A DNA stretch of 64,000 nucleotides, taken from contig NC_092679.1 in assembly GCF_964355755.1 (NCBI RefSeq), positions 17,536,932 through 17,600,931 on the forward strand, read 5' to 3'. Each line of letters starts with the position of its first letter. The stretch's first letter is position 1. The position numbers were made by a program, and so were the translations under genes. Origin of the DNA: Antedon mediterranea. Taxonomy: Eukaryota; Echinodermata; Crinoidea; Comatulida; Antedonidae. Positions 5,874 to 39,242 of the stretch are shown here, piece by piece. Below the pieces are notes generated by a model. That model searched no databases. It saw only the letters and a program-made list of their open reading frames with translations, and had not been told where the DNA came from.

Positions 5874-6207
5874 AACTTGGTTCCTGCTAGGACGCACCGC
5901 AAGCACGTAAACGCAACGCAAGCGTGTTTAAGCGTGGTTCCCACACTAGCGACGCAACACAAGGACGTAACGCAAGTGAATTGACCAATCACAAGCGATG
6001 GCTTATTCGCTTGTGATTGCTAACTGTCTATAACTTCGCTTGTCATTGGTTAAAACGCTTGCGTTGCGTTTACGTCCTTGCGTTACGTTCTAGTGGGAAC
6101 CAAGCTTTACCAACGACAAGTGACAGTTCGAATAATCCATCGCTTGTGATTGGTCAACTCACATGCGTTGCGTCCTTGTGCTGCGTCTCTAGAGTGGGGA
6201 ACCAGAC
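5874..6207. mobile_element. Nested foldback MITEs, AAGCTTGGTTCCCACT family
   Basis: Terminal repeats ending in TAGTGGGAACCAAGCTT frame sub-terminal arrays of GACGCAACGCAAGGACGTAA and its complement. Inside are the paired motifs ACCAATCACAAGCGATGG and its complement. At least two elements overlap: an outer 5' end at 5874, an inner one at 5932-6108, and a further right half ending near 6207 (GGGGAACCAGAC). The distal part is missing from duplication copy 2. Confidence 0.75.
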
Positions 6208-6964
6208 ATTAGGTATACTGAATTCCGTACGTATAAGTTCGGATGCACGGATTTTGGAGCGATGGATTTCTTGAGATCAATTTTGTTTTTGAAATCGTAA
6301 GGTTTTCCCTCTGACCAATCAGCGTTTGTGCTGAAATTGTGACGGACTGTAACTTCCCTAACAGTAATTAATAATATATGAGTACGATTAAAATACATGA
6401 TAATAAAAAACGCAACAAGTATGTAACGTAAGCCTGACCTGGTTAGTAACAGGTTACTTGTTTGATCGAGACAATTGTTTGTCCGCCTATATTTTTACAA
6501 AAACGTATCCTGCTGTAGGCCTAAGAGGTGCAAATATTTGTACGTCTACTATCTGAAAGAAGGTGGAATAACAAATATTGTTCTACCGAATTGCTGTCTG
6601 CTGTAAAAGCACAAGAAAGTACTGTACATACATTAGGACTTCTGGGGTGTTTTTTTTTAAATAACATCCCGGACCTCAATATTGACTTTTTAAGGCGACC
6701 ACATGCACATGAACCAACAACGTAAGCGCCCGCAAAAAATGTGACCAATTACAAGTTTCTTGACGTTTTTACTTTATGCTTGGTTTATACTCTAGGACGC
6801 GTCGCAACGTAAGAAGGGCGCAAACAAGAATTGAAAAATCACAAGCGATATATACTGTCGTCATTGGTCACGTTGCGCTAACGTCCTTGCGTTGCGTCCT
6901 AGTGGAAACCAAGCTTTGTGCGTTGGATACCAAGTGTTAGCGAGGATGACACAATTAACTGTTA
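6166..6964. other. Segment present only in duplication copy 1 (799 bp)
   Basis: Copy 2 jumps from the base equivalent to 6165 to that of 6965 with only TT in between. The segment contains one complete foldback MITE and half of another, and no gene. A deletion in copy 2 with a 2-bp filler is the simplest reading; an insertion in copy 1 is less likely because the ends do not match element termini. Confidence 0.9.
6778..6915. mobile_element. Foldback MITE, AAGCTTGG family, unique to duplication copy 1
   Basis: The left end reads GCTTGGTTTATACTCTAGGAC and the right end GCGTCCTAGTGGAAACCAAGC, with the family GACGC-rich arms and a central ACAAGCGATAT / GTCATTGGTCA pair. It lies wholly in the 799-bp segment that copy 2 lacks. 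Confidence 0.7.
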
Positions 6965-14637: not shown

Positions 14638-14889
14638 TAAGCCTGGTTTCCATTAAAATCGCTACAGCGTTTCCATTAAAATCGCTGCACGCGCAGATGT
14701 CGCCGACGCAATCGGGAAGGCTCCCCGATTCATCGCAGTCAAATCGGCAAAGTTCAACCATGTTCAACTTTGCCGATTTTGTCGGCGATGAATCGTATAC
14801 GCAAAGAATATTTAGCGCTCGCGTACGTACTAGATCCCCGATAAATTCTACACGACAGAGCGTAGCGATTTTATGGAAACCAGGCTTTA
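14638..14889. mobile_element. Foldback element with TAAGCCTGGTTTCCAT ends
   Basis: The ends read TAAGCCTGGTTTCCATTAAA and TTTTATGGAAACCAGGCTTTA. Inside are complementary segments around AATCGCTACAGCG / GAGCGTAGCGATT, and an inner hairpin of CAAAGTTCAACCATG / CATGTTCAACTTTG. Both strands have long open frames only because of this symmetry; they are not genes. The duplicate is at 30603-30854. Confidence 0.8.
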
Positions 14890-15765: not shown

Positions 15766-15786
15766 ATGGAATTTTTCGAAAATTAA
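15766..15786 (+). promoter_or_regulatory. Short upstream ORF before gene B1
   Basis: ATG GAA TTT TTC GAA AAT TAA: a six-codon upstream ORF ending one base before the B1 start codon. It could lower initiation at the main ATG, or allow reinitiation. The duplicate is at 31731-31751. Confidence 0.4.
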
Positions 15787-15787
15787 A

Positions 15788-18700
15788 ATGACGTCAACAG
15801 AGACAGTACCAAATACCTCAGAAGTAAGACTCAGTAAGACGACTTTGAACAGCAACACTGAAGATCCTTCACGTAATTCTGCGGTAGTTACAGCGGCGGC
15901 ACACTGGAAGAGCAATCGTCTGCAAAGTATCTCCCTGCCACCGAACACAAATCTTCTAAGGGCCGATAGTGCCCTCAAGGAGGAGGATGCAACTTCTGAT
16001 CCATCTGATCAACAACATTCAAGAAAAAACTCAAGAACGTCTTTGATTCCTGGAAGTCTGCCTCATAATGTTGCCGCTCAAAATGGCCAAAACTTAGCTC
16101 CGTCTTCAGAGATCATTAAATACCAGATACAAGCTGCCGCCGTCATTGGCCAGGGAATAAACGCACAGAATGGAGAACTTGTAGAGAATGCCAACACTCG
16201 TGTTGGAGATTCCCTTCTTTTTACAATTCCATATATGGATGTTAAGCTTGCCTACATCTGCCTGTTTCTGAATATTGTAATCCCAGGACTAGGTAGGTCT
16301 TTTTCGTTTTCTTAAATCATCATTGATGCCCAAAAAAAGTAACACGAATGTCACTATCAGAGTGGTACCACTACGTCACTGGTGAAAACTTCTCCCGTCA
16401 AATGACAGAATATGAATATATTTTTATTAGTTGAATTCCACATTGTTCGTATTATTATATTATGTAATTTAAATTTGTAATGTTGTACTGATGACTACAT
16501 TGCCGTATTTTATTTAAATATTTATTATATATTTGAATATTTCATTATAAAATATTACAAACATTAAAAATTGTATGTTCTAATAATCTGCTTGGCATTT
16601 TGGGTTATACACAATGAACGTAAGATCATTGTAAAACTGTGTTGAATATTATTACAAATATCAATTAATTTAAAATTACTGTTTTAGAACACATTATTTT
16701 CAACCATAACAATCATTCACTCAAAATTCCTTTATTAAAAGAAAACATGGTTCCAGATAGACCATTCATTGTTTTTTTTTTGTATCATTAGAAAATATAT
16801 TTCCAAAAGTAGTATTTTATTGTAGATATATGAACATTATTTCGTAATGTTTTTGGTAATTGTCGACTTTAAACTAACGTTTAATTGTGGCATTTTTCTG
16901 TTGCTCAAACCAATGATATGCGATTTGTATTAAGTAGGCTATTTGTAACGTTGTATTGATATTCATTTCGGTTGCCATGTCGACGCTATAATAAAGACTT
17001 ATTAAACTTCTTAATAGTAATTGCATTGGATTTGCTATTTAATCTAGTGTTCATTTATGGCATTCAAGCGTAAATGATGATTATAATGAAATATTCAAAC
17101 GATTTCAAATTGTTTTGGAGAAAATTTACAAAATGGGATCAAATTACATCATTATTACCGGTTTCATATTATAATTATCTCAATTTTAATCAACGTAATA
17201 TTAAACAACCTTGCCATGATGTGACGTCATAATCATAATCATCATCTTTGGCCATACACAAATTATAGGTTAATTTTTGAAACAATCAGATAAATTATTA
17301 AAAAAATAAATTGCGCATGAGCAGACATTACCGAACAACCAAGATCCCAATTACAACGCAACAATTTGTTCTTCAGGGTTACACATTATCGCATTTATCC
17401 GATAATTATTATCTGATTCGAATGAGAGATAATTATCGGTTAATTTTCGAGCGGAATCGGTTAAACCCCGTTTCTACAGGAACTTTATCGGTTTTAAGTA
17501 TACAAATTATCGCATTTATCCGATTATCTGATTCGAATGAGAGATAATTATTGGTTAATTTTTATCGGGTAATTATCGGTTAATTTTGGCTGCGTTCCAT
17601 TATCATCCTCTCTGTCATTATCATCTTTTCATTGTTCTGCATCTTCAATGGTCATTAACATTTTAATATTATAATTATCATTATTATATTACTGTTATTA
17701 ACAACATTTCAGGCAACTCACAATATTATCAAGCATGTTTTACGTATATGGTTATGCAAATTGTAAACAGTCTCAACCTATATTGAGTTTAATTACATTA
17801 TAACATACAATTGAAATTTAGACCGTATTGCACGATCTGCCATAGTATTATAATGGCTGTAAGATATTGAGATATACTCACTGTATTATTAATAATATTC
17901 TGTGCGTAGGAATGAAAATAGGTAGAATAACTGATCATAATAATCATATTGATTTTATTCTGTCATTATTAGCAATTTGTATTCTATATTGTTCATCTAG
18001 GATAAGTTCAAATAAGTAATAACAGACACGAAGTAACAATAATAGCAATTGAAGTGATCGTTGCCAATCATTTAAATATAAACATTAGATTTGCCTTAAG
18101 TCTGTATTTATTGTCCTTTTTTAGTCGCGCGCAACGCGACTATACAGCTAACTATGTCGGTCGGTTGATCGGTCGGTTGGTCGGTAAACACTAACTTGAG
18201 CACGCGACTGCAGCCATGTATATGGCCTTTTTATGTTAGCCCACCAGACGACGTGTCGATTTTCAAGTATTATTTAATTTCTTTTCATTCACATTTATTT
18301 AAAACATAACAGTAAAAGAAACAAACATACATTTACAATATTATACAAATATGAAACGCCAAATGTACCAAAATAGTTATCTTGTTACTAATATCCGATA
18401 GATAAGTACTGTATTACCGGTAGATAATTTATATTATGTCTTATACACTATCAAACTATTAAAAAAATGTGATGTCATATCACTACCATAGTTGGGCAAA
18501 TCACACTTTTTTTGTCAAACTAGTTTGATAGTGTAGACAGGCCTTAAAATATCAGTACTGATAATCCTCTAGATAACTGAGGTTGTCCCGATCCGTTAGT
18601 TAGCTAGTTTTCACACGCTTTCCATACATTGCGTCAAGATGAACGCAACGCATTTTATTGCCAAGTTAGGTCACCTGTGCTACCGGGATATTCAAATTTC

Positions 18701-19601
18701 CTTTGATAAGTATGCTCTATCTTGGAAACGATATACAATAGGGAACACTGGCTTGAACGGCACTAAAGCTGTTAAATTATTCAAAGTACAGTAACTAGTG
18801 TTTTGGAAAGTAAATAATTGTGTTCTTCACTTAAGGTAAGGACAGGCCTAACATTCTGTTCTCTGTTTTTCTCTTAGGTACAATCTTGTCCGGGTTTAGT
18901 GTGCTCTGCTTAAGTAGCAGTACACCTCAAGATGACCGTAAGCAAGACGAAGTAATACAACTCTGCTGTTCCAATCTCTGCGTAGGCCTGTCACAAATGT
19001 TCACGATTACTTTCTTTCTGGTTGGCTGGATATGGAGCATAACGTGGGGTGTCAATATGGTTCTTTTAGCAAGTTAGTTTTGCTTTTTGTGGAATTTTCC
19101 ATCTTTTATCATAAATAAGTAAACGAGTGTTGGTCTCTAGAAGAGATATCATTGTTCGAACACATTTACATGTGCCTCTAGCTCACCACCTCACCACACT
19201 CGTCGCGGTAATACACCGACAAAATTGATAAAAAAAGGGAAGAAAAAGACTACATTCCCGACAAAAACCTGTTATTTTTGTGTGTATGTTTTATATTAAT
19301 TTCCATATCAATCGATAACTATATTGCACGGTCGGTCATAAAAGGCTTATTACACACTCTCATGCAGTAATAATAATAATCATAATGAAACCATAACAAG
19401 ACCTGAATTATTATATTAGAAAAAAAAATCAAACGTAACAATATTAGTAAAAAAACAAAATTAATAAAAACAAACTTTTCTCTACTCGACTACTAAAGTG
19501 TTCAAAATCTTCTTTTTTCAGACCATCACAGGAAGACCCAACAAGAGAATCGTAACCTTAGCACTACTGTGTCTGTAGCTCGAGCGTTTATGAGGATGTG
19601 A
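15788..19601 (+). CDS. SPEC3/Stum-family membrane protein, gene B copy 1
   Basis: Exons 15788-16292, 18878-19072 and 19522-19601 are joined by phase-1 introns at the same places as in genes A and C, giving 259 residues. Residues 1-144 are a Ser/Thr/Asn-rich, probably disordered cytosolic region unlike anything in A. The core begins with TIPYMDVKLAYICLFLNIVI (about 144-163) and PGLG at the exon junction. It continues through TILSGFSVLC and a second hydrophobic stretch at 203-233 (SQMFTITFFLVGWIWSITWG). The short tail starts NHHRKTQQ. B and C share the SLL.TIPYM..KLA and CVGLSQMFTITF..VGWIWSI.WG.NM signatures and are closer to each other than to A. The role is inferred from the family (cilia or mechanosensation). 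AATAAA hexamers occur at 20000 and 20039. Confidence 0.9.
17395..17588. repeat. 111-bp tandem duplication with internal inverted repeats
   Basis: ATTATCGCATTTATCCGAT starts at 17395 and again at 17506; each unit also has GAATGAGAGATAATTA. ATAATTATCGGTTAATTTT and its near-complements give several hairpins. It lies in intron 1 of gene B1 and is probably a decayed foldback element. The duplicate is at 33360-33553. Confidence 0.65.
18122..18228 (-). mobile_element. GTCGCG-hairpin element, copy in B1 intron 1
   Basis: One end is the hairpin TAGTCGCGCGCAACGCGACT. GGTCGGTTGATCGGTCGGTT repeats follow, then CACTAACTTGAGCACGCGAC and ATGTATATGGCC. The same unit occurs, reversed, at 45244, 54312 and 58691. 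Read on the minus strand the element ends with the hairpin and CTAA. The duplicate is at 34087-34193. Confidence 0.75.
18443..18547. mobile_element. Foldback MITE, TCTGTCTACACTATC family, copy 5
   Basis: This is a short internally deleted copy with TACACTATCAAACTATT left, GTTTGATAGTGTAGACAGGC right, and one central block with CACTACCATAGTTGGGC. The duplicate is at 34408-34512. Confidence 0.75.
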
Positions 19602-20840
19602 CCACCAGAGGCTGCAACTAAGACAATTAGTGATGTAGAATAAGTATTTTGTGATAGGACTGTCACTTTTTTTCATAGTGAAGGTCAATTACACAGACGA
19701 GCGGCAACGGTAATGAAAAATATAGAATCCTTGTACATATTATGAACATTTACACAAACGCGGAGCGAACGGGTGCTTTCCGCTCAAGATAGATACAGAT
19801 TACACGTGGGACAAGCTCGCAGTTTTCAGTGTAAATTGGCCTTAACTGACTCTCATTTTATGAATATTTAATAATTGTATCAACTTCTACTATTTTATAA
19901 ATACACATATATTAGTTTACGAATTAAGAGATGTTTATTATATAACCATGGAGAAATCTAAATCTAACTTAGGCCTATTTCTTCATGATATAACTTTAAA
20001 ATAAAATTTAATGACAATGGTTTTGGAACCATTCTCAAAATAAAAAGCACCAGAGGGTGACAGTAAATACTTAAATAATTAGTTACTAAGACTAAAAGCC
20101 TGAAAGGCTAGGCACTTGCTAGTTCCTGAAAATGTTCCACGATGGTTCCGAAACGTCAATCTTTTTGAAAAATTATTTTAAAGATAGTTTAAGTACAATA
20201 CTTATTACTAGCCGATTTGTACACATATAGCAAATTATTTCACATATCATAAAGCTCTACACTATCAAACTATGTGTGATGTGCCCAAATATGGTAGTGG
20301 TATGACATCATCGTGTCCATATGGGCACATTACATTTAAGTAGACCTTAAGTATAAGTAAAACAAAAGTTTGAAATAATGAGTAGGTTCTGATGATTTCA
20401 CGTGATTCGATTTTGAGGAAGATTGTCAGTGGTTGAATGCGCGGGTCAAATTTCGTCACGTAGCGTCAATTAAGACCTTGGGGATAGAATATTATATTTA
20501 AAGCGTAACAAATACAAAATCGACGTATAAGAAGTAAGATTATTGACCAAACCTATTCAAAAGTATATAAATATGTAAATACGGACAATTGAAAATCGAA
20601 AGTCACTTAACGAATCATGAAGTATTGTTGCTCAATGTAGTCGTTAAGAAAACAATGCAATTGTGCAAATGATAACCAATCGATGCAGGTAAATAAATAC
20701 AGCTTTCAAACATACAAGTTTGTGAGACACTACTTAACACCTTTACTGCATAATTGTGAATAAAATAAAGTCATTATTGTTGGATAGGCTAATTACGTTG
20801 TACGAGTACTAAATTGATACGTTAAAAAGAATGGAATGGT
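19602..20840. other. B1 3' UTR and B1-C1 intergenic region
   Basis: It holds B1 3' UTR with AATAAA hexamers at 20000 and 20039, one foldback MITE (20251-20349), and AT-rich unique sequence that may carry the C1 promoter. No further exon is recognised. The duplicate is at 35567-36805. Confidence 0.5.
20251..20349. mobile_element. Foldback MITE, TCTGTCTACACTATC family, copy 6
   Basis: AAAGCTCTACACTATCAAAC begins it, with GCCCAAATATGGTAGTGGTA and CATCATCGTGTCCATATGGG inside and AAGTAGACCTTA at the end. It is short and degenerate. The duplicate is at 36216-36314. Confidence 0.65.
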
Positions 20841-20877
20841 ATGTTTAGTAATCGTGGTAGAAGATCCTCAATCGTAG
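20831..20877 (+). promoter_or_regulatory. Three staggered ATGs at the start of gene C1
   Basis: ATGs at 20831, 20836 and 20841 lie in three different frames. The first opens a 5-codon uORF (stop at 20846-20848). The second opens a 13-codon uORF (stop at 20875-20877) that overlaps the main frame. The third starts the C protein. Scanning ribosomes must pass both uORF starts, so translation may be tuned. The duplicate is at 36796-36842. Confidence 0.5.
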
Positions 20878-21222
20878 AACCAATGATGGAAGCTGAGGTG
20901 GTTAAAGAATTCCAGATAGATGAGTCTATAAAGTATAATGATGCAGCTGTGGAGGCTTTTAAGGTGTGGCGAACGAAGACTGAAGCGAATAAAACAATTG
21001 CTAATGCCTCTGCAAAGAAAGGCATTTTGAATCGGATAGCTGGAAGTTTCAAGAAGAGCAATGACAACCGGGAAGAACGGGAGTTCATGGCAAAACAAAT
21101 GGAACTATCTGTAATCTACGCAACGATTTGGGAAAGTGACTCTCTATTATCGACTATACCTTACATGCCACTTAAGCTGGCCTTTGTCTGTGCATTTTTA
21201 AACATAATTTTACCTGGGATTG
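20841..21222 (+). pseudogene. SPEC3/Stum-family gene C copy 1: orphan first exon
   Basis: This exon is identical to exon 1 of C2. It encodes 127 residues: a charged N-terminal half (MFSNRGRRSSIVEP start, Lys/Glu-rich to about residue 90) and the first membrane segment STIPYMPLKLAFVCAFLNII, ending PGI with a phase-1 donor at 21223. The duplication ends 197 bp later, so its own exons 2 and 3 are absent. Without splicing, translation stops after 12 more residues, at 21260. The next downstream acceptor of the family, A2 exon 2 at 28400, is in the matching phase. A C-A chimeric protein could therefore be made; equally this may be a dead fragment. Confidence 0.8.
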
Positions 21223-21437
21223 GTAAGTTTATTCTAGAGTATAAGGTTTATTCTGTATAGTATGATGTGTAGTGTTTCTCTTTCGTATCATACATTTATT
21301 TATTCTATTAGATATTGTTAAAACATTGAAATGAATTATCTTCGAACTATTATAGTTTAGGATTTTTAACTGAAACTGCGAGCAGCGACAAGGTTGCTTG
21401 TTAGCCGGATTATGATATTGTGGCCTTATTAATTTGC

Positions 21438-22005
21438 ACCGTGGTACTTGTTCTACGCTGGTGGTGCTTCTTTGTTTGTGGTACTTATAGTATCATAGAA
21501 CTTTGTAAAATTCTATTGTGCTTGTTTGTGGCACCGGCATTTCTTCGTTTGTCGCACTTCGTAACTTTTTTGCGCTTTCAGCGGCGTTTTGTCACGCTTC
21601 TTCGTTTGCGGCGCTTCTTCCTTTGCGTCGTTCCTTAGCTTTGTTTGCGGCACTGGCGTTTTTTCGTTTGTCGCACTTCTTCGTTTATGCCTATCTTTCG
21701 TTATAGTACTTATTCCATGGTTGCGATGTTTATTTGTTGCGATTCTTTGTTTCTGGTACATATTCGATTGCGATTCTTCGTTTGTTGCGTTTCTTCAATG
21801 AATTATATTCGTGTTTGACGCTTCTTAGGTTCGTGTCTGGTATACATATTCGATTGCGATTCTTCGTTTGTTGCGTTTCTTCAATGAATTATATTCGTGT
21901 TTGACGCTTCTTAGGTCCGTGTCTGGTATACATATTCGATTGCGATTCTTCGTTTGTTGCGTTTCTTCAATGAATTATATTCGTGTTTGACGCTTCTTAG
22001 GTCCG
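21438..22005. repeat. Pyrimidine-rich repeat and minisatellite, copy 2
   Basis: Duplicate of 4676-5243 at offset 16762. In copy 2 it lies just after the junction, about 7 kb upstream of A2 exon 2, and so inside the first intron of any C1-A2 read-through transcript. Confidence 0.85.
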
Positions 22006-22635
22006 TTTCTGTTACTTATATTCATATTCATTTATTATCCAGAAAAATAAAAACAATAATACAAAAAGCATAAATTACATAAAACAAAAACAAGCATAGA
22101 AAAACGCAGGACACTATCCTGGTATACATATTCGATTGCGATTCTTCGTTTGTTGCTTTTTAATATTTGTTGCTGATATTTCCTCGTTGTTTTGTTACTT
22201 ATTTGACTAACGGTTAAATCGACAAAAACAAAATAAAATAACGGAATATATACAATTGTTTTTCCTTTGTCCTTTCGTAAAGCTAAAGACATTAAAACGT
22301 CACAAGTCCTTTGGTGTAAAGTGTTATACAAATACATTTACAATAAAAACTCGATTAACGTATATTACCTTGTCCAAACAATGTTGATTCAGACAACAAA
22401 AGCATAATATTCTTTATTACATAAATTAAATAATCAAGGATAAACATGCTTTTGTTCCGCTTCTTCTCGCATAGCAACCGTGGTCGTTCAATATAAAAAA
22501 GCTTTTAAAGAACGTTCGCATGAATGAATTCGCTCTTCCCTCCTGGTTCACACTGAGCCGAATCCCGGTCCTAAGATTTGAGAAGAAAAAAAATGAAAAT
22601 GGGTGTTACATACAGAATAGGAGCGTTCACACTAA

Positions 22636-22927
22636 AACTTGGTTCCTGCTAGGACGCACCGCAAGCACGTAAACGCAACGCAAGCGTGTTTAAGCGTGGT
22701 TCCCACACTAGCGACGCAACACAAGGACGTAACGCAAGTGAATTGACCAATCACAAGCGATGGCTTATTCGCTTGTGATTGCTAACTGTCTATAACTTCG
22801 CTTGTCATTGGTTAAAACGCTTGCGTTGCGTTTACGTCCTTGCGTTACGTTCTAGTGGGAACCAAGCTTTACCAACGACAAGTGACAGTTCGAATAATCC
22901 ATCGCTTGTGATTGGTCAACTCACATG
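22636..22927. mobile_element. AAGCTTGG-family foldback MITEs, copy 2, right half truncated
   Basis: Duplicate of 5874-6165. The distal half-element stops at 22927, where the 799-bp deletion begins. Confidence 0.75.
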
Positions 22928-23000
22928 TTGTGTTATAGATTTTAATTTTATACCTCGATGGGATAATTTCATATTTTCGAGAACATGAAACAGCGGGCAT

Positions 23001-23337
23001 TGTAACGTTGTTTTGTAAGCCAGTCAAAACCATACACTAACATTCATTATTTGTTCTGGAAAGTACGGTAAATTGAATAGTTCTATCTATTCTTATCCAC
23101 CATACATAGTATTATTTTTAGACGATAGAGATTCAATTCAATTATTGTTAGTTTTGTGCCTTAGGTCCTGTAATGTTGTTTTGTAAGCCAGTCAAAGATC
23201 ATACACTAACATTCATTATTTGTTGTGAAAAATACAGTAAATTGAATAGTTCAATATATCCTTATCCACCATGCATTGTATTATTTTTAGACGATAGATT
23301 AAATTCAATTAATTGTTAGTTTTGTGCCTTTTGACAA
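23001..23337. repeat. Two tandem 170-bp units upstream of SPEC3 gene A2
   Basis: Duplicate of 7036-7372 at offset 15965. Confidence 0.8.
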
Positions 23338-24228
23338 CAATATGTTATGCGTTGACGATTTATTACAAGAGTGTTAACGAAACTTAATATTTTTGTTTAC
23401 ATATAATTTGAATGCAATAGAAACTGAAGATTTTGAAATGTTTTCAATTACTCTAAAATGTTCCTACTACTAGCCTAGTACTAGTAGTTTGAATGCGATT
23501 TTTTGTATTGCATTTAAATAATGCAATTTTAAAATGATTACTGTTAAAAAATAATTACTGTAGTTATTATAATTATGTTAAAAACAGTGAGTTATTGGTT
23601 GTTGATAGCGTGACTGACGCGCCGTAATTCGTTCCAAAAGTACGCGTTACCCCCATACGCGCGCGAACTATTCGTGCGATAGAACTTAATAACGTTAAAT
23701 TTGCCAAATAAATTCATTCGGTCGCGGCCATATGCCTTTAAAAAAATCTGTAACCTGGAATTGATAATACTGTTAGGCCTAGGCCTACATCATATTCAGA
23801 ATCTTCCGCGTTATTAATTTTGTTTTTTCTATTTGAGGAGGAGAGCGCGTCACTTCCTCCATCAGCCAATGAATGAACTTGTACCAATAGCACCAACACC
23901 ACTCAGTGTGTGAGGAGTCGCAACTGACAAGTGACAGTTCAACCAACATAACTTAGCCTACGTTAGCCTACTGGGTTTTCTAATGTTAGCGTAAACACAG
24001 TAGCTGTTTCCTTGGTTGCCTTAAGTTAAGGATTAAGACACCACGAAACTAACCGGTCATCACAGACAAGCGTTGGGATCCTACGATATCTGGTGATCGA
24101 CGATTTCTAGAATCTGGCGGACAGTAAATTGACTTTTTAAAAAACCGCTTTAGCTAAAGTTTTTGGAATAATTAACGCGAAATTAGGCCTAAGGAGTTTT
24201 ATTTGTTAAAGCAGAGTTAAAATTGAAT

Positions 24229-27200
24229 ATGGCAGCACCTTATGGACAACCACCGCCTCAACAAGCGGGTGGTACTGTTACTACTGTTACGGTCGTACAA
24301 ACGGAACAGAAACCTAATGCCTGCCGAGCCGCAATTCCCGCCATGCACATTGCGATGGCCGTTGTCTGTTTGATTTTCAACATATTCATTCCTGGATTTG
24401 GTAAGTATCTGGGCTTTATTAGGTATCTGTAGGCTATATTAATACCACACATGACATTCTTTGAAAGAAGGCGAAACATCGAACTTTTAGAAATAACTTT
24501 CTTTATTGTAACCTACTTAGGACCTAGGAGTACTTTATAATCGACAACTTTATTTATTCACGAAATTATAAAATACAAAAGAAGAAAATATAAAACTCGT
24601 TCGCCATAAAATAAAGGTGTTCTCCCACAGGTTCGTCATAGGTAATATACAAATAATACAGTGTATACAGTGTATATACATTCTCAATCAAAACTTATTA
24701 ATATGAAACAATATTATTTCGATTAGGCCTAGGGCCTAGACTTGCTTTCTTACATTGATATGCCTAGGTAGGGCATAGGCCTAGACCACACTTTTTATTT
24801 GGAGAACCACTTTTTTTGGAGGGGGAGGGGGTGGGAGGAGGGGGGGGGGGTGGGAGGGGGGGGGGGTGGCGGGAAACAATCTGTACCTTAGTGGTGTCGG
24901 AGACAAAAGTTAGCTAGGCTAATTACTTGAAAGTAATGCATGATACATTTTATGGAAACCAGTTAACTACACTGGATAACAAAATAAAGAAATAAATATG
25001 TAGACTTATAGGTAGGTTAAACAAAGTAAAAATGTAGATGTTGCTTTTCGTAGGATTTAAAAATAAAATAGAATTGTTAGCTGCGTTCTGCGCCTAGCTG
25101 AAATGACCCTTTAAAAGACATGGCACGTGGATTAGTCGCGCGAAAGGAAGAAGATAATTGATTCAATTCAATTCAATTTCTTTATTGCTGCAAATGCCAT
25201 CAAGGGCTAATATCCGCTTAAACATACTACATCATACAAACATAATTATACATATTTACATTTAAAATTTAAACACATAACAATTATAGTCATTACTACT
25301 GTAGTTATTATTATTTTTGATTATTGTAATTATTGTTATTATGATTATTGTTATTATTGATCTGATCTATATTGCCTAATACTCCTATACTATTGTTTAC
25401 CGTATACAAATTCGATTTTCTATAATAATAATTCATCAAGTACGCATAATAATTCTAATGCACAATAATCGATTTAACGACTGAAAATTGTATCTTCTTC
25501 CAGTAGTATTGTATCTTGTATCTTGTATCTTGTATTGTAATTTTACGTTTTATGTTATTATTATTCATGCATATTCCCTCTCAGTCGCTGTGTTCGTCTG
25601 TTCTAACAATACTAAATATTGTGAATGCATAATTGTGTATTTTGCATGCAATGAGGTGGGGAAAAAAATACAGAATTTGAGTTAGTCGTGCGAAGAAATA
25701 CATTTTCTTTACATTAGGCCTGATCCAAATATGGAATAATAATTAATGCCAAAATAAGTGCAGTAATAAAAATGAATTATGACCGTAATGATGTTTTGTG
25801 CGGGTTTATCTTTTATGTATATCCAAGTACTTTTGTGATTGAAATTATCTCATCATAACATCATCAAAATCAAAATAAGATTTTAAAAAAAACAAGCTTT
25901 TTCAAATTTTATTCTAACGGTGATAGGTAACCTAACCATATACCTATTGTAATTTTTAAGCTCTGTCTACACTATCAAACTAACTTGACAATAAAAGTGT
26001 AATGTGCCCAAATATAGTAGTGATATGCTCAAATTTGGTAGTGCTATGACATCATGATCCATATGGGCACATCATTGTTTGTCGCATAAAGTAGACAGAG
26101 CTTTTATGTTTGTTTTTGTCGATGGGATACATGAACACTGTTGTTGCTTGGTAACTCATTATTTGGCATGGTTACTTGGTAACATAAATTAAATTATAAA
26201 TGTTGTTTAAAATGTTACCATGATTACATATGAATTCAGTTAATACTCATTATGGAAATATTTCTATGGGAAATTTAAATCATAATTTAAAATCGTACGG
26301 TAGATCGTTTAGGCCTATAATCATGGGACACGTATAGGCGGCCCCCTCCATGGAAGCTGCTGCGTATTTGACGTCTGTTTTAAAGTTCAGATGCAGAAAA
26401 ACACTACTTATCATACATTCTAATAAATATCGATTTATGTTTCCCTTGTTTCATAATTGTTGAGGTTTGTTCACGGAGTTTTTGGATAATTTATTGGGGA
26501 TGGATGGGGCCGGTGTTGTAGGTTAAAATTCATATAATTTTGCGTACAAATAATATTGTAAATAACGAGGCATTAAAACAATTATGAAAAATAAAGTATG
26601 GCAAGCATTTTTTATCACATTCGTATATATAAATGTTCTAGGGAGTCATCACTGTGGTAACCAGGTTAAACTACCTAGCTAAATGAAAAAAGAAGCTGAA
26701 AATAAAAATAAAAAACAAAGTACAGATAACATTTTCTAAATAATAGATAATACATGAGAAAAGGGGGTACCCCACTGGAAGCTTAAGCTTTAAAATGTGG
26801 GTCCAGGCAACATAGTTAAGTAAGGTAAGAAACATGTAAAAAACATGATAATGAACAAAAATGGCATTTAACTTAACAAATGCCGTATAATTTAACTTAA
26901 AACAGATTATATTAATTAACTTAAACAATAATAGTAGAAACAAGGTATTCATTTAATTTGAACTTAAACAAGAGATAAAATTAATAATGTTGAGTTCTTC
27001 TGCTAGAGAATTCCATATTTTGGGTCCTTGAAAAGTTTGAAATTTTTAATAGCATAAATTTGCAAAATTCTGTATTTGATAATTAAGATATTTTTTTAAA
27101 AAAATGCACATTGGACAATACTAGCTATTAGCTAATTAACCTAATGGGTAATTTATCCACTATCTATATTTGTAATTCGAATGCCGGTTATAATTGGCCT

Positions 27201-29144
27201 ACTAATAGAGATTGATGATCTATACTCTATGCGCCTGTTACGCATTTTATAATACTAAACTTGATTAAGGGCCCCATTATACTAAACGATATTCCTATCA
27301 AATGCAATATAGTAAGAAGTTTATCTGCTACTATGGACATTTAGGATCATAATATTATGATGTTGTTATGGTGGCATGTATTTACCTATCGATTTGTTTA
27401 AACAGTCCACAATTGTGTTTTTCCATTTTGGTCCTGTTTATATACGTTGAATAGTAATATGATATGTACACCAATTTGATCATAAAGACACATCTCAAAT
27501 TCAATACGGAGACTAATAGCTTAGATACCACCTGATAAGCTAAATTTATTTTGTAATAATTACGGTATTGTAAAATAAATGGTCGCAAGATTCTGTTCTA
27601 CTATAATATAGCCTATATAAGGTCAATAACGTCAATAACGTAATATAGAAGCCTCTATAATTTGTTTAAAAATAAATTTATAATAATAATTTATATAATA
27701 ATTACATGGACGCAAAATTCTGTTCTATTATAACATAGTCTACTTAAGTGAAAGTTGGGCTTTGGCTTTCGTCGTAATACAGAAGCCTCTATAATGTGTT
27801 TACATTGAATTAGGCCTAAAGGCCATTTATTTTAATGAATTTTGTGAATTAATCATTTAGTATGAACTAACTATCCACTGGAGCTAGCTATATGTTGAAA
27901 CTTTTCATTGTCTGTATTTGTAATAGCTCATAATTCGTTGAGTCGTGTTCCGTTTTACGTCGCTACTCAATTTTTTTTCTTTCTTTTTTTCTTTCATTTA
28001 TTTGGCATCTCAATACATAACATTAAAAATACATCAATAGGCCTAATATATATTATCACCTTAATACGATTTTCTAATATTTATCGAAAGGGTGCTGTTC
28101 AAAATCAATTAGTTACCATTGGAAACATTTTTTTTACAAAGTGAATATGATAAAACGATTATGTGGAAATAATTAGGATTGAGTAAATGTTGGTATAGGA
28201 TAAACACTGTACGTTATGCAATTGTATTAATATTAGTATAGTAAAACATGTTCACGTTGACACTGTTGTTTGTAGGCCTACGTAAATAACCTAGTATAGA
28301 AATGAGTAAAATACACATTGTAATCAAATACTGTTTTTCTAATAATTGTAAATTATTCTAGTAAAATTAATTTAAAATAAATTATATTTATGATTTTAGG
28401 TACAATTATGGCGGCGTTTGCAGTGTTCTGCTGTGCGAACACAGGCCAGTCGGGTGGAGGGAAAGTTGGTACGTTTTGTCTCAACTTCTGGGTAGGACTT
28501 CTGCAGTTGGCGACGTGTTGGATCTTTTTGATTGGCTGGATCTGGAGCATTATGTGGGGAGCTGCTTTTATAGGAATGTCAGGTAAGAACGTGCCATTAT
28601 CTCATCATTTCCATCATAATTGAGTTTATAAAGTAGCATAGGGATCGATTGTATGACGTCATTTGTCTCAAGTCGTCGAGGTCCACTAAAATCGATTTCG
28701 ATCCGACGACCGTAAACCGAAAAGAATGCGCATGTCTGTGACATCCAGGTCGTCACCTGAACCTATATGTGCCGCACCAAATTCAAGCTCACGATGCGCT
28801 TCGACACAGTTTTGGTGGTTTCTAGGTGCAGGCGGCGTCGACCGACGATACATCGATGCGTAAGACCGGCCTAGGTCGTCACAAGTTAAAATCTCCGTAT
28901 TATTGTGTTGATATATACAGGTACAAATACATCTTTTTAAATGTTTCTTTCAGCTGATTATCATTCAACTAATGAGCCTACAACCACAGTAGTGACGACA
29001 ACGGCAGCGGCACCACCACCACAACAGGCAATGGTTGTAACTAATCCGCCACCATACAGCCAACCACCATACAACCAGCCACCCCCAGCTAACCTACCAC
29101 TTCAGCCAATGCCTGGTCAACCAGATTATCCGGAGAAGGTCTAG
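24229..29144 (+). CDS. SPEC3/Stum-family membrane protein, gene A copy 2
   Basis: Identical duplicate of gene A1 with exons 24229-24400, 28400-28582 and 28954-29144 (181 residues). The promoter region within 1.3 kb is also duplicated. Exon 1 has no splice acceptor, so a transcript entering from the upstream orphan C1 exon would skip it and use the acceptor at 28399. The copy is intact; whether both A genes are expressed cannot be seen from sequence. Confidence 0.93.
24818..24873 (+). repeat. G-rich tract in intron 1 of gene A2
   Basis: Duplicate of 8853-8908. The homopolymer lengths are the same as in copy 1, which is notable because such runs mutate quickly. Confidence 0.8.
26143..26227 (+). 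promoter_or_regulatory. Cluster of RFX X-box-like motifs in intron 1 of gene A2
   Basis: Duplicate of 10178-10262 with sites at 26143-26155, 26171-26183 and 26214-26227. Confidence 0.4.
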
Positions 29145-29227
29145 AAAAAAACAACTTCGTTGTGTATTTTTACAGACATTCTATATATTTTTTAAAATCT
29201 GATCGATTCCACCGTGTGATATAAGAT

Positions 29228-29233
29228 AATAAA
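29228..29233 (+). terminator. Poly(A) signal of gene A2
   Basis: AATAAA lies 84 bp after the A2 stop, the duplicate of 13263-13268. Confidence 0.6.
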
Positions 29234-31752
29234 ATTAGATAATTTTGGTACTGCAGACAACTTGATTAAAGTGTATATAAGCCAACGTGAACATATTTTC
29301 GTTTGTTTTTTTCGTCTAGTGGGTTTAAGTATTTGTTTTCTTAACCAATTGAATCTGTGATGATGCCGCATAAGCGGATGATACGGATTATTAGATAATG
29401 AACTACGCATGGTCAATTTCTATAGTAATACGCGCCCGTATAAACATTAAACTTGTATCACTGTTTGAATGCGTTTGAATTTTTCCGCGCTATCTTATTT
29501 TTGTCAAATCAACACAATGTTAAGCTCTGTCTACATTATTAAACTGTATGTGAAAAAAAAAAGGGATGTGCCCATACATGTCGACCTTCATCGACTTTTT
29601 TTTATTGTAATTGTTGTTTACATATTTTGTTTTTGTATATTTCTTATGGATGCACCTTCCACTTGGTCTAGTGCCACTAGTGTAAACTCAAAATAGATTA
29701 TTATTATTATTATGGATACGATGACGTCATATCACTACCATATTTGGGTACGTCACATTTTTTGTCAAACTATAGTTTAGACAGAGCTTTAGAAACAAAT
29801 GTCACTATTTTTTATACAGGCTATAGTTAGTAGCACGCCTATATTAAGGGGACACCCCCACCCCCGACACTCAATAAAGTATCTATACTCCATATAGTTA
29901 TCTCTGAATAGGCGATACTGGACTGTTAAAACATGCATTTTTGTTCGTTTATCATTAAGTTTCCCTTTTTATGGAAATGCGTAATACGCGTATATACAAA
30001 CCTACTTCGGTAGTTAATGTTGTTATATAATAATGTATTTCCCTGTATGAAGCTCAGTATCAGTGAATTGAGCGCCGTTTGCTTTATACGAAACTGATTT
30101 TTCAATAGAGGCCGGCGGCCAAGTTTATAATGAATACATACTCGACTCCCATATTGTAGGTGTTGTAAATAAACGTAACTAAAACTGAATTTTGAAGTAT
30201 CTTTTTAAGAATTAAAGTAAGTAAAATATTATTTCTTATAAGTAGACACTGTTGATTTAGCCTAATAAGATTAAGAGGGAATTTGACGTTAACGATAAAT
30301 GAAAGATATACCTCTAAATGTATTTAAATATGGTCTCCTCTGACCTCATCCTCAGCGTTTGGACCTTTTTTTTGTGGTTTAGCTCTGTTTTACATACTTC
30401 TCGCAGGACGTCTGCTTGTAATACGCTAAATTAAGTAGCCATCATGGTACGGTTTACCCAGGTACTTCCCGGTACTTACTAACTGTGTTCTATGCCACTG
30501 GTGGGCCACACATTGGTTTTTAATTGGATGGTTTCTTATTATTGATTTTAATATGGTCTTTAATTAGAGGAATACTTCGTACCGGTATATGTTTGTCTAT
30601 ATTAAGCCTGGTTTCCATTAAAATCGCTACAGCGTTTCCATTAAAATCGCTGCACGCGCAGATGTCGCCGACGCAATCGGGAAGGCTCCCCGATTCATCG
30701 CAGTCAAATCGGCAAAGTTCAACCATGTTCAACTTTGCCGATTTTGTCGGCGATGAATCGTATACGCAAAGAATATTTAGCGCTCGCGTACGTACTAGAT
30801 CCCCGATAAATTCTACACGACAGAGCGTAGCGATTTTATGGAAACCAGGCTTTACTAATTCGTTTGGTTACTACTTCACATGATAAGTAATGTCAAATTA
30901 TGTTTTCAAACATTGTGAATAAATTAATTTTATATTATTAATAGTGTGTCTCTTTGAATGTATTATTTTTTATAAATCCAACTTTCATTTCAGACAATGT
31001 CCATCTAAAATTGTACTGTAATTTATGACTTCTTTCTGAATACAATGTTGTATGCAGCTTGGATTAACGTACAGTTATTGTATAAAATAGACGTACGGTT
31101 TCGTTCCTAATATAGCCATTAGTACGGTGATGACGATGATAATACCATACGAAATGAAGTACCAGAGATGAAGTGAACTTATGGTTTTTATGCTTAAACG
31201 AGTTTTCCTTTTTATTCTCCTGTGTTTAATATCAGAAGCAAATACTCACCTATAAGTACATGATATAAACAGATTCTGACATTTTACCTTAATTGAAGTA
31301 AAAATTGAGGTTTTACAATTTTAAAGTTAAGAAATAACAAGTGGGTATCAGTTTCATACAGCGCCCCCTATCGTTTGATTCAATCGCAGATGAATTTATA
31401 AATGATAATATATCATCTTTATTGAGTGCTAATAAAATATTAAGTAACAGATACCCCGTATGTTGGCTTGCAAACGTCAGCGATCCGCATGCTGTGCGAG
31501 AGAAGTCAAAATGTTTGTGAACAATCCATCAGCAAGCTATATGTAAGGAATATGCATATCGTCTGCTACCGAACAGGTTTTTATTTTTAATCTTCATGCT
31601 CTAACTTCGGGGAATATTGTATGATTTCTACTAATTTGTTCTTCTTGATTTACATCTCTGTAACATTTTTTTAGTAAATTAAATGGATTTTTCTTCAATA
31701 ATAATCTTTCATTAATATTGTTGTTTTTAAATGGAATTTTTCGAAAATTAAA

Positions 31753-34700
31753 ATGACGTCAACAGAGACAGTACCAAATACCTCAGAAGTAAGACTCAGT
31801 AAGACGACTTTGAACAGCAACACTGAAGATCCTTCACGTAATTCTGCGGTAGTTACAGCGGCGGCACACTGGAAGAGCAATCGTCTGCAAAGTATCTCCC
31901 TGCCACCGAACACAAATCTTCTAAGGGCCGATAGTGCCCTCAAGGAGGAGGATGCAACTTCTGATCCATCTGATCAACAACATTCAAGAAAAAACTCAAG
32001 AACGTCTTTGATTCCTGGAAGTCTGCCTCATAATGTTGCCGCTCAAAATGGCCAAAACTTAGCTCCGTCTTCAGAGATCATTAAATACCAGATACAAGCT
32101 GCCGCCGTCATTGGCCAGGGAATAAACGCACAGAATGGAGAACTTGTAGAGAATGCCAACACTCGTGTTGGAGATTCCCTTCTTTTTACAATTCCATATA
32201 TGGATGTTAAGCTTGCCTACATCTGCCTGTTTCTGAATATTGTAATCCCAGGACTAGGTAGGTCTTTTTCGTTTTCTTAAATCATCATTGATGCCCAAAA
32301 AAAGTAACACGAATGTCACTATCAGAGTGGTACCACTACGTCACTGGTGAAAACTTCTCCCGTCAAATGACAGAATATGAATATATTTTTATTAGTTGAA
32401 TTCCACATTGTTCGTATTATTATATTATGTAATTTAAATTTGTAATGTTGTACTGATGACTACATTGCCGTATTTTATTTAAATATTTATTATATATTTG
32501 AATATTTCATTATAAAATATTACAAACATTAAAAATTGTATGTTCTAATAATCTGCTTGGCATTTTGGGTTATACACAATGAACGTAAGATCATTGTAAA
32601 ACTGTGTTGAATATTATTACAAATATCAATTAATTTAAAATTACTGTTTTAGAACACATTATTTTCAACCATAACAATCATTCACTCAAAATTCCTTTAT
32701 TAAAAGAAAACATGGTTCCAGATAGACCATTCATTGTTTTTTTTTTGTATCATTAGAAAATATATTTCCAAAAGTAGTATTTTATTGTAGATATATGAAC
32801 ATTATTTCGTAATGTTTTTGGTAATTGTCGACTTTAAACTAACGTTTAATTGTGGCATTTTTCTGTTGCTCAAACCAATGATATGCGATTTGTATTAAGT
32901 AGGCTATTTGTAACGTTGTATTGATATTCATTTCGGTTGCCATGTCGACGCTATAATAAAGACTTATTAAACTTCTTAATAGTAATTGCATTGGATTTGC
33001 TATTTAATCTAGTGTTCATTTATGGCATTCAAGCGTAAATGATGATTATAATGAAATATTCAAACGATTTCAAATTGTTTTGGAGAAAATTTACAAAATG
33101 GGATCAAATTACATCATTATTACCGGTTTCATATTATAATTATCTCAATTTTAATCAACGTAATATTAAACAACCTTGCCATGATGTGACGTCATAATCA
33201 TAATCATCATCTTTGGCCATACACAAATTATAGGTTAATTTTTGAAACAATCAGATAAATTATTAAAAAAATAAATTGCGCATGAGCAGACATTACCGAA
33301 CAACCAAGATCCCAATTACAACGCAACAATTTGTTCTTCAGGGTTACACATTATCGCATTTATCCGATAATTATTATCTGATTCGAATGAGAGATAATTA
33401 TCGGTTAATTTTCGAGCGGAATCGGTTAAACCCCGTTTCTACAGGAACTTTATCGGTTTTAAGTATACAAATTATCGCATTTATCCGATTATCTGATTCG
33501 AATGAGAGATAATTATTGGTTAATTTTTATCGGGTAATTATCGGTTAATTTTGGCTGCGTTCCATTATCATCCTCTCTGTCATTATCATCTTTTCATTGT
33601 TCTGCATCTTCAATGGTCATTAACATTTTAATATTATAATTATCATTATTATATTACTGTTATTAACAACATTTCAGGCAACTCACAATATTATCAAGCA
33701 TGTTTTACGTATATGGTTATGCAAATTGTAAACAGTCTCAACCTATATTGAGTTTAATTACATTATAACATACAATTGAAATTTAGACCGTATTGCACGA
33801 TCTGCCATAGTATTATAATGGCTGTAAGATATTGAGATATACTCACTGTATTATTAATAATATTCTGTGCGTAGGAATGAAAATAGGTAGAATAACTGAT
33901 CATAATAATCATATTGATTTTATTCTGTCATTATTAGCAATTTGTATTCTATATTGTTCATCTAGGATAAGTTCAAATAAGTAATAACAGACACGAAGTA
34001 ACAATAATAGCAATTGAAGTGATCGTTGCCAATCATTTAAATATAAACATTAGATTTGCCTTAAGTCTGTATTTATTGTCCTTTTTTAGTCGCGCGCAAC
34101 GCGACTATACAGCTAACTATGTCGGTCGGTTGATCGGTCGGTTGGTCGGTAAACACTAACTTGAGCACGCGACTGCAGCCATGTATATGGCCTTTTTATG
34201 TTAGCCCACCAGACGACGTGTCGATTTTCAAGTATTATTTAATTTCTTTTCATTCACATTTATTTAAAACATAACAGTAAAAGAAACAAACATACATTTA
34301 CAATATTATACAAATATGAAACGCCAAATGTACCAAAATAGTTATCTTGTTACTAATATCCGATAGATAAGTACTGTATTACCGGTAGATAATTTATATT
34401 ATGTCTTATACACTATCAAACTATTAAAAAAATGTGATGTCATATCACTACCATAGTTGGGCAAATCACACTTTTTTTGTCAAACTAGTTTGATAGTGTA
34501 GACAGGCCTTAAAATATCAGTACTGATAATCCTCTAGATAACTGAGGTTGTCCCGATCCGTTAGTTAGCTAGTTTTCACACGCTTTCCATACATTGCGTC
34601 AAGATGAACGCAACGCATTTTATTGCCAAGTTAGGTCACCTGTGCTACCGGGATATTCAAATTTCCTTTGATAAGTATGCTCTATCTTGGAAACGATATA

Positions 34701-35566
34701 CAATAGGGAACACTGGCTTGAACGGCACTAAAGCTGTTAAATTATTCAAAGTACAGTAACTAGTGTTTTGGAAAGTAAATAATTGTGTTCTTCACTTAAG
34801 GTAAGGACAGGCCTAACATTCTGTTCTCTGTTTTTCTCTTAGGTACAATCTTGTCCGGGTTTAGTGTGCTCTGCTTAAGTAGCAGTACACCTCAAGATGA
34901 CCGTAAGCAAGACGAAGTAATACAACTCTGCTGTTCCAATCTCTGCGTAGGCCTGTCACAAATGTTCACGATTACTTTCTTTCTGGTTGGCTGGATATGG
35001 AGCATAACGTGGGGTGTCAATATGGTTCTTTTAGCAAGTTAGTTTTGCTTTTTGTGGAATTTTCCATCTTTTATCATAAATAAGTAAACGAGTGTTGGTC
35101 TCTAGAAGAGATATCATTGTTCGAACACATTTACATGTGCCTCTAGCTCACCACCTCACCACACTCGTCGCGGTAATACACCGACAAAATTGATAAAAAA
35201 AGGGAAGAAAAAGACTACATTCCCGACAAAAACCTGTTATTTTTGTGTGTATGTTTTATATTAATTTCCATATCAATCGATAACTATATTGCACGGTCGG
35301 TCATAAAAGGCTTATTACACACTCTCATGCAGTAATAATAATAATCATAATGAAACCATAACAAGACCTGAATTATTATATTAGAAAAAAAAATCAAACG
35401 TAACAATATTAGTAAAAAAACAAAATTAATAAAAACAAACTTTTCTCTACTCGACTACTAAAGTGTTCAAAATCTTCTTTTTTCAGACCATCACAGGAAG
35501 ACCCAACAAGAGAATCGTAACCTTAGCACTACTGTGTCTGTAGCTCGAGCGTTTATGAGGATGTGA
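31753..35566 (+). CDS. SPEC3/Stum-family membrane protein, gene B copy 2
   Basis: Identical duplicate of B1 with exons 31753-32257, 34843-35037 and 35487-35566 (259 residues). All splice sites are retained, and the uORF just upstream is duplicated too. If C1 exon 1 transcripts failed to splice at A2, exon 2 of B2 (acceptor at 34842) would be the next phase-compatible target. Confidence 0.9.
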
Positions 35567-36805
35567 CCACCAGAGGCTGCAACTAAGACAATTAGTGATG
35601 TAGAATAAGTATTTTGTGATAGGACTGTCACTTTTTTTCATAGTGAAGGTCAATTACACAGACGAGCGGCAACGGTAATGAAAAATATAGAATCCTTGTA
35701 CATATTATGAACATTTACACAAACGCGGAGCGAACGGGTGCTTTCCGCTCAAGATAGATACAGATTACACGTGGGACAAGCTCGCAGTTTTCAGTGTAAA
35801 TTGGCCTTAACTGACTCTCATTTTATGAATATTTAATAATTGTATCAACTTCTACTATTTTATAAATACACATATATTAGTTTACGAATTAAGAGATGTT
35901 TATTATATAACCATGGAGAAATCTAAATCTAACTTAGGCCTATTTCTTCATGATATAACTTTAAAATAAAATTTAATGACAATGGTTTTGGAACCATTCT
36001 CAAAATAAAAAGCACCAGAGGGTGACAGTAAATACTTAAATAATTAGTTACTAAGACTAAAAGCCTGAAAGGCTAGGCACTTGCTAGTTCCTGAAAATGT
36101 TCCACGATGGTTCCGAAACGTCAATCTTTTTGAAAAATTATTTTAAAGATAGTTTAAGTACAATACTTATTACTAGCCGATTTGTACACATATAGCAAAT
36201 TATTTCACATATCATAAAGCTCTACACTATCAAACTATGTGTGATGTGCCCAAATATGGTAGTGGTATGACATCATCGTGTCCATATGGGCACATTACAT
36301 TTAAGTAGACCTTAAGTATAAGTAAAACAAAAGTTTGAAATAATGAGTAGGTTCTGATGATTTCACGTGATTCGATTTTGAGGAAGATTGTCAGTGGTTG
36401 AATGCGCGGGTCAAATTTCGTCACGTAGCGTCAATTAAGACCTTGGGGATAGAATATTATATTTAAAGCGTAACAAATACAAAATCGACGTATAAGAAGT
36501 AAGATTATTGACCAAACCTATTCAAAAGTATATAAATATGTAAATACGGACAATTGAAAATCGAAAGTCACTTAACGAATCATGAAGTATTGTTGCTCAA
36601 TGTAGTCGTTAAGAAAACAATGCAATTGTGCAAATGATAACCAATCGATGCAGGTAAATAAATACAGCTTTCAAACATACAAGTTTGTGAGACACTACTT
36701 AACACCTTTACTGCATAATTGTGAATAAAATAAAGTCATTATTGTTGGATAGGCTAATTACGTTGTACGAGTACTAAATTGATACGTTAAAAAGAATGGA
36801 ATGGT

Positions 36806-39242
36806 ATGTTTAGTAATCGTGGTAGAAGATCCTCAATCGTAGAACCAATGATGGAAGCTGAGGTGGTTAAAGAATTCCAGATAGATGAGTCTATAAAGTA
36901 TAATGATGCAGCTGTGGAGGCTTTTAAGGTGTGGCGAACGAAGACTGAAGCGAATAAAACAATTGCTAATGCCTCTGCAAAGAAAGGCATTTTGAATCGG
37001 ATAGCTGGAAGTTTCAAGAAGAGCAATGACAACCGGGAAGAACGGGAGTTCATGGCAAAACAAATGGAACTATCTGTAATCTACGCAACGATTTGGGAAA
37101 GTGACTCTCTATTATCGACTATACCTTACATGCCACTTAAGCTGGCCTTTGTCTGTGCATTTTTAAACATAATTTTACCTGGGATTGGTAAGTTTATTCT
37201 AGAGTATAAGGTTTATTCTGTATAGTATGATGTGTAGTGTTTCTCTTTCGTATCATACATTTATTTATTCTATTAGATATTGTTAAAACATTGAAATGAA
37301 TTATCTTCGAACTATTATAGTTTAGGATTTTTAACTGAAACTGCGAGCAGCGACAAGGTTGCTTGTTAGCCGGATTATGATATTATAATAATAATAATAA
37401 TATTTATTCGGCATCATCAAGCATAATCTTATTAATCGCCAGGAGCTGCAATCAACAGAATTAACTACTCTTGCTCCAACGAAATACAACAATAATTTAT
37501 AAACAAAGTTAGCAAGTTAGTTAAAATGACATAAAAACAAAAACTAAACTAAATATACAAAAGATTATACATGATTTAGGCATACATTAAAAATGAAAAT
37601 ATAAAATAAAAGGGTATATTGTCAAAGTTAGTATGATGAAATCAGGTGATCAAATTTGAGCTTTAAAGTTAGTGAACAAAATGCAATTTTTAATATATCT
37701 TCTGGGATCATTTTTCCATAGTCTAGAAAAAATTACAAAAGAGAAGTTTAGATATAGATAGGCAGAACATAGATCGTCTGGTAAATCTTTCTAGTGTAGC
37801 ACTTATGTTATGCTGTAGGCCTACTTTTAGTGTATAAAAAAGTATTTTTCTCCAGATGAAATTCCGTACTAAGTAGTTTTTAGGGATAAATTAATGTCCA
37901 TGTTATTAATTCTAATATGCATTAATTCCTTAGAAATCACAAAAAGTCTTCGGTTTTCAGATTAGGAAGTTGTATATCTAAATATCTAGACGTATCTTAA
38001 CATTTAATCCGATCTAATCAACTCATTCAGTAATTATTTTTATCCATAATTTTGTTTTTCTATTCAGGAACGTTGATTGGCGCTGTGAGTATATTTGTAT
38101 GCAGTAATCCACAAGGTTTGTCAAAACGTGAACCTGATGTTCTACAAGAGGCCTTTATAAGCAACGTGTGTGTTGGCTTATCCCAAATGTTCACAATCAC
38201 GTTTCTTCTTGTCGGCTGGATATGGAGTATCGTATGGGGTATCAATATGATACTTGTCTCCAGTAAGTGGCAATTGTTTCTATCGTAATTTCCATCACGT
38301 TATGGCGACAACCACTTTATGTCTTGTGCGGTTTATTCATACATCCAATGATACCACGTTCTCTCTTCTCTTATTACTATTTCACCCTTGTCTTGTTACT
38401 ATTTCACCCTTTTCTTGTTACTATTTCATCTTCCTATTTCACCCTTCTATTATTACTATGTCACCCTTACTTTTTTACCATTCTCTTAGTACTATTTCAC
38501 CCTTATCTTATTACTATTTCACCCTTCTCTTATTACTTTTTTACCCTTCTCTTACTACTATTTCACCCTTTTCATTACTATTTCACCCATTATTAAAACT
38601 ACTGTTTTCGCTCATTTTCTGTTCATACTTATCATTATCATTCACATCAATTGAATATTCATAATCATCGTCTTATCCATTCATAATACTCCACATTATC
38701 GTAATTAAACATTCTATAATAATCATTACATTTCAGACCAATGTCTGTCTTGTTCAATAGTCATAAAATTCAGCTGTTACCTCATATAACATTTTGTTAA
38801 TGCATGGAAATTACAATTAAGTGTATGTAAAATATTAGTAGGCCTACACTGAAAGCGTGGTTCCCACTAGAGATGCAACCCAAGAACGTAGACGCAACGA
38901 AAATGGGCTGACCAATGACAAGCAACAGTATAATATATCAATCAACGTTGCGTTACGTCCTTGCGTTGTGTCTCTAGAGGGAACCAAGCTTCTTATGCAA
39001 CAGAAATATTTGTTTTTGTTTTTTTGTTGTAAAAATCACTGTAAATATTCGTTATTATGGTTACCATTATAATACCAAAAAAATGTACGATTGATTGAAT
39101 AAAGTTCACATATTAATTACATACAATACTGTTTTTTCTATCTTTTTTTTTAGAACACCACAATAGTCTTGTTGATAGAGAAATACATCGAATTAAAGCG
39201 TTATCGTTGACAACCAAGCTGTTTGGTGTTCAAGACTTATAG
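36806..39242 (+). CDS. SPEC3/Stum-family membrane protein, gene C copy 2 (complete)
   Basis: Exons 36806-37187, 38068-38262 and 39154-39242 with phase-1 introns give 221 residues. Exon 1 lies in the duplicated block; exons 2 and 3 are in single-copy DNA. Residues 1-104 are charged and hydrophilic. Membrane segments lie at about 108-140 (across PGIG at the exon junction, then TLIGAVSIFVC) and 161-192 (SQMFTITFLLVGWIWSIVWG). The tail is KHHNSLVDREIHRIKALSL and ends FGVQDL. The N-terminus differs from A and B, but the core is close to B. If intron 2 is retained the frame ends 9 codons later (KWQLFLS). A poly(A) hexamer lies at 39419. Function is inferred from the family: cilia or mechanosensory membranes. 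Confidence 0.92.
37385..37960 (-). mobile_element. Retroelement 3' remnant at the distal duplication breakpoint
   Basis: The plus strand starts with (ATA)n and TATTTATTCGGC, the mirror image of a non-LTR 3' tail ending in (TAT)n. It continues as AT-rich 3' UTR-like sequence with TCTTCTGGGATCATTTTTCC, which resembles segments near 11040 and 47520. No intact coding was found. It lies in intron 1 of C2. Confidence 0.4.
38366..38588 (+). repeat. Pyrimidine-rich 24-bp minisatellite in C2 intron 2
   Basis: About nine imperfect units of TTCTCTTATTACTATTTCAC are followed by CC. The array starts about 100 bp after the exon 2 donor. Open frames through it reflect the periodicity only. Confidence 0.85.
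38854..38992. mobile_element. Foldback MITE, AAGCTTGGTTCCCACT family, C2 intron 2
   Basis: AAGCGTGGTTCCCACTAGAG at the left pairs with CTCTAGAGGGAACCAAGCTT at the right; GACGCAACG and TTGCGTTACGTCCTTGCG lie inside. This copy is outside the duplication. Confidence 0.8.

Follow-up and report, generated by a model that had tools for sequence, protein, structure and literature searches.

A probable, very recent head-to-tail duplication in a crinoid Spec3/Stum gene cluster and the chimeric protein predicted from it

What becomes of a first exon that keeps its splice donor, loses the rest of its gene and comes to lie upstream of a complete set of paralogues? This question is raised by a 64,000-nucleotide stretch of the genome of the crinoid Antedon mediterranea (the window; C10:17536932-17600931), which contains the last part of an EML gene (a WD40/EML propeller), a cluster of Spec3/Stum genes, termed here A, B and C, and a TMEM26 gene. 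The DNA is rich in TAGGCCTA, and no RNA family was found in this stretch. For the Spec3/Stum family we found neither a solved structure nor usable literature on function. The genome-wide searches mentioned below span 354 Mb in 18 contigs.

Self-comparison of the window identifies a block of ~16 kb that is repeated head to tail. Positions 4655-6165 are the same as 21417-22927 (1511 bp, 100%), and positions 6960-21419 align to 22926-37384 with 0 mismatches and one 1-bp gap. The copies therefore differ by no substitution in 15.97 kb, which by the rule of three bounds their divergence at <1.9e-4 per site (95%). The left edge of the unit is located ~1.5 kb past the last EML exon and 3.6 kb before A1. 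The EML coding sequence ends near 3173 and its likely polyadenylation signals reach up to 4478, so that the EML gene is outside the duplicated unit. The join between the copies lies 194 bp 3′ of the C1 exon 1 donor, within intron 1 of gene C, and its sequence across 21416/21417, AGCCGGATTATGATATTGTGGCCTTATTAA, occurs once genome-wide. The join and the right edge of the unit have ATT in common; beyond these 3 bp, no homology that could support unequal crossing-over was found between the unit edges. Genes A and B were copied whole, gene C through exon 1 only. Copies as identical as these could result from a duplication that is very recent, from recent homogenisation or from an error of assembly. 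In our opinion the duplication is probably real; it would then be very recent and may be a private variant.

The duplicated unit ends in C intron 1, and for this reason C exons 2 and 3 are present once, with C2 only. No exon 2 of its own was found for C1 in a genome-wide Spec3 search, the exon-2 matches being those of A1, A2, B1, B2, C2 and a fourth gene, paralogue D. A sequence-only reading had described C1 as an orphan exon of just this kind, with a good phase-1 donor at 21223; both points hold, as does every coordinate given in that reading, the donor being good, not exceptional. Splice scores, here and below, come from approximate general metazoan matrices and are rough. On this scale the donor 9-mer of C1, TTGGTAAGT, scores 4.2 bits and is identical to that of the A exon-1 donor, which is the natural partner of the A2 exon-2 acceptor. 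The next family acceptor downstream of C1 is indeed, as had been proposed, that of A2 exon 2 at 28400, in the same phase and at the same point of the fold.

Table 1. Features bearing on the predicted C1-A2 chimera (window positions unless a contig is given)
Feature	Position	Strand	Remarks
Tandem copy 1: A1, B1, truncated C1	4655..21416	+	self-BLAST
Tandem copy 2: A2, B2, C2 exon 1	21417..37384	+	self-BLAST
Duplication junction, inside C1 intron 1	21416..21419	.	3-bp ATT microhomology, no N
~795 bp in copy 1 only	6166..6964	.	sole inter-copy difference; compared with 22927/22930
C1 exon 1 (127 codons + 1 nt), ends PGIG^	20841..21222	+	identical to 36806-37187; Spec3 N-part
C1 donor GTAAGT	21223..21228	+	TTG^GTAAGT, phase 1, 4.2 bits; read-through stop at 21258-21260
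Rival internal exon: cryptic acceptor 23866 + A2 exon 1	23866..24400	+	C frame ends after PGIGANE
A2 exon 1, coding part	24229..24400	+	skipped in predicted chimera
A2 exon 2	28400..28582	+	acceptor for predicted chimera
A2 exon 3: Pro-rich tail with PPPY, stop	28954..29144	+	AATAAA at 29228
B2 exon 2	34843..35037	+	alternative partner; strongest acceptor
C2 exon 1 (intact gene C)	36806..37187	+	identical to C1 exon 1
C exon 2	38068..38262	+	single copy
C exon 3 + stop	39154..39242	+	single copy
Paralogue D	L007 = C10:7814800-7824799		exons near 1914-2148 and 8326-8507

C1 exon 1 joined to A2 exons 2 and 3 gives 756 nt that are open throughout and encode 251 aa without a stop; joined instead to B2 exon 2, it is open as well (218 aa). 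The predicted hybrid junction, 21222 to 28400, is ATTTTACCTGGGATTG^GTACAATTATGGCGGC, and the joined C exon 1-A exon 2 sequence, ATTTTACCTGGGATTGGTACAATTATGGCGGC, would be out of order in a single-copy A-B-C arrangement. Membership in PF15795 was taken as a match over the whole 85-position model with the curated cut-off of 27 bits; the predicted chimera belongs to this family, with 104.8 bits over model positions 2-85, between its parents C (93.1) and A (108.9). It also has the phase-1 first coding junction PGxG^T, which is common to A, B, C and D, the full set of Spec3 genes in this genome; D is located on the same contig, ~9.7 Mb away from the other three. A perfect tandem duplication accounts for the layout, and the position and phase of the intron are common to the four members; hence the fit of the two parts is not due to chance.

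The junction maps to the PG turn within the first hydrophobic stretch (108-140). The hybrid was earlier described as the first membrane segment of C joined to the second of A: the hybrid frame itself stands, whereas the exchange point is not a boundary between segments but lies within stretch 108-140. In exon 2, C resembles B (SNxCVGLSQMFTITF), while A resembles D (VFCC, WIWSIMWG) and is its closest relative there; the hybrid would therefore mix two sub-lineages.

The splicing outlook for such an RNA is mixed. Of the six acceptors in the cluster, that of A2 exon 2 scores lowest (-1.1 bits vs 3.5 to 7.8, by the rough matrices), and on the same rough scale it is equalled or exceeded by 45 other AGs in 21260-28399. 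The new intron would be 7.2 kb long, of which 4.0 kb is A intron 1, and gene structure implies that cryptic sites in this part are already passed over when A is spliced from the same donor 9-mer. Within 21223-24400 the only donor of at least 3 bits is that of A2 exon 1 itself, which leaves the inclusion of A2 exon 1 as the one serious internal-exon rival. In most read-through chimeras, the upstream gene is spliced to the second exon of its downstream neighbour (PMC4744188). The read-through unit includes the A2 promoter, and interference between the two may occur.

The explanation that we propose is as follows. A duplication through the 3-bp microhomology would have produced the partial copy of the cluster, in which C1 retains the upstream DNA and exon 1 of C and has lost the acceptors and the 3′ end. 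Because these are lost, a polymerase starting from C1 should run into copy 2. The likeliest spliced product would then follow the usual read-through pattern, C1 exon 1 to A2 exon 2, and would encode a Spec3 protein with the cytoplasmic N-terminus and first hydrophobic half of C and the second half and PPPY tail of A. Here promoter activity of C1, read-through and splicing are what we infer. Taken as a whole, from recent duplication to C1-A2 splicing, we regard the explanation as evenly balanced between right and wrong. If the duplication is real, a C1-A2 RNA is somewhat likely to be detectable, and it would most likely be a by-product alongside prematurely ended C1 RNAs.

The sequence-only reading had gone further, to a new gene created in one step by tandem duplication. 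The structural requirements for this are all present in the DNA: layout, frame, phase and an intact domain. The step to a new gene is unsupported, because rival RNA fates are plausible and the copies are too young for selection to be read. It is improbable, in our estimate, that C1-A2 represents a newborn Spec3/Stum hybrid that is translated, seen at a stage when the parent copies have yet to acquire a substitution and combining the expression pattern of C with the PPPY tail of A; the chance of a functional new gene is very slight. None of these gradings of duplication, RNA and function was computed; they express our judgement. As it stands, the chimera is a sound prediction rather than an established result.

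A possible, if doubtful, alternative is that C1 is a dead 5′ fragment, the RNA of which is polyadenylated in 21223-24228 or else retained and degraded. The lost acceptors and 3′ end are what this alternative would expect, as are the in-frame stop at 21260, which limits the product of unspliced C1 to a truncated C of no more than 139 aa with the end GKFILEYKVYSV, and the AATAAA/ATTAAA signals, with AATAAA at 22046 (the first), 22232, 22342 and other positions. Yet the number of such signals in 21223-24228 (7 seen) is what composition gives by chance (6.0 expected), and A polymerases must cross the 16 of A intron 1. Furthermore, the intact donor of C1 would be expected to suppress polyadenylation close by through U1.

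An artefact of assembly, with C1 absent from the animal, is unlikely. Assemblies often contain false duplications, which are recognised by depth, gaps and k-mers (PMC9516828); the zero substitutions and a unit length near that of a long read would suit such an origin. However, the window with 60 kb on either side (184 kb) contains no gap or N, and the same 184 kb holds no other perfect repeat >0.5 kb, which also counts against an artefact. The join shares only 3 bp, with no longer homology at the edges, and an overlap-based misjoin therefore has nothing to act on. Two misjoined alleles would normally be expected to differ by many SNPs. The ~795-bp difference between the copies, in turn, implies two distinct molecules. 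This segment is located 1.3 kb upstream of the A start codon, and at its junction 2 bp overlap and 1 more bp is lost. At full length it is unique in the genome, only a ~50-bp repeat-like part near its end being dispersed; for this reason its reading as a mobile-element insertion was set aside, a deletion in copy 2 being as likely.

Splicing of C1 to a cryptic acceptor at 23866 would bring in A2 exon 1, stop the C frame (PGIGANE*) and leave C1 as a second promoter for A2 or as a poorly translated long leader. Such an outcome is decidedly improbable: this acceptor is the best-scoring in the interval (5.2 bits, rough scale) and would pair with the real A exon-1 donor, but the resulting 535-nt exon would start in the apparent A promoter (two CCAAT boxes, as read from the sequence), A itself has no sign of an upstream acceptor, and read-through usually skips exon 1 of the downstream partner (PMC4744188).

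The predicted C1-A2 chimera can be compared with several known systems. In Drosophila yakuba, tandem duplications have produced 76 chimeric genes, many with altered expression (Rogers et al. 2017, PMC5460883). The present case resembles them in being recent and probably polymorphic, and here too a head-to-tail duplication has a breakpoint inside a gene (C intron 1). In the Drosophila chimeras, however, a 5′ gene part is fused directly to a 3′ part from a second gene. In the present case the gene parts do not abut, since the left edge at 4655 is intergenic, and a hybrid can consequently form only if transcription continues past the 5′ end and exon 1 of a gene that is itself intact; the DNA layout fits the "recruited non-coding sequence" class of the same study better. 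Unlike in Drosophila, the partners are paralogues. In feline APOBEC3 A3CH (PMC2397500), likewise, a hybrid protein arises from highly similar head-to-tail tandem paralogues via read-through and splicing; A3CH, however, gains a whole domain after stop skipping, as shown by cDNA, whereas half a domain would be swapped here, as predicted from DNA. The pattern is also that of cis-splicing of adjacent genes, in which splicing runs from the final usable donor upstream to the second exon of the neighbour downstream (PMC4744188). There, termination fails; C1 has instead physically lost its 3′ end. As in other members of PF15795, a complete domain spans the predicted splice point, but unlike in those members a B/C-type first half would be followed by an A/D-type second half and tail. 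An exon-shuffled chimera made by tandem duplication and read-through is a well-known kind of event, among which the present case stands out as young and clean.

If C1-A2 RNA is indeed produced, the locus represents a chimeric gene at age zero with identical parents, in which the effect of exon shuffling could be measured before selection. Should the translated hybrid prove true, a single duplication would have swapped exons inside one membrane domain. If the RNA is not made, a perfect structural set-up fails to yield a gene. For annotators, it should be noted that any C1-A2 gene model here depends on a duplication that needs confirmation by reads.

Some further features were observed. A long, G-quadruplex-like G run at 24820-24872 lies in A2 intron 1 (in A1 too) and falls within the predicted chimera intron. 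A weak Spec3 match (21.5 bits, one internal TAA) at C9:22268703-22268882 is possibly a decayed or distant family member. Elsewhere in the window, an inverted repeat at 49143-50127 (arms of 170 bp and 133 bp; 98% and 92%) immediately precedes a broken series of reverse-transcriptase-like ORFs (50259-51940), and five tandem copies of a 105-bp unit at 57271-57809 adjoin the apparent C-terminal part of a non-LTR retroelement (56948-57268). At the right edge, a 3.3-kb inverted repeat with 98.6% identity extends from window position 62354 to C10:17606627.
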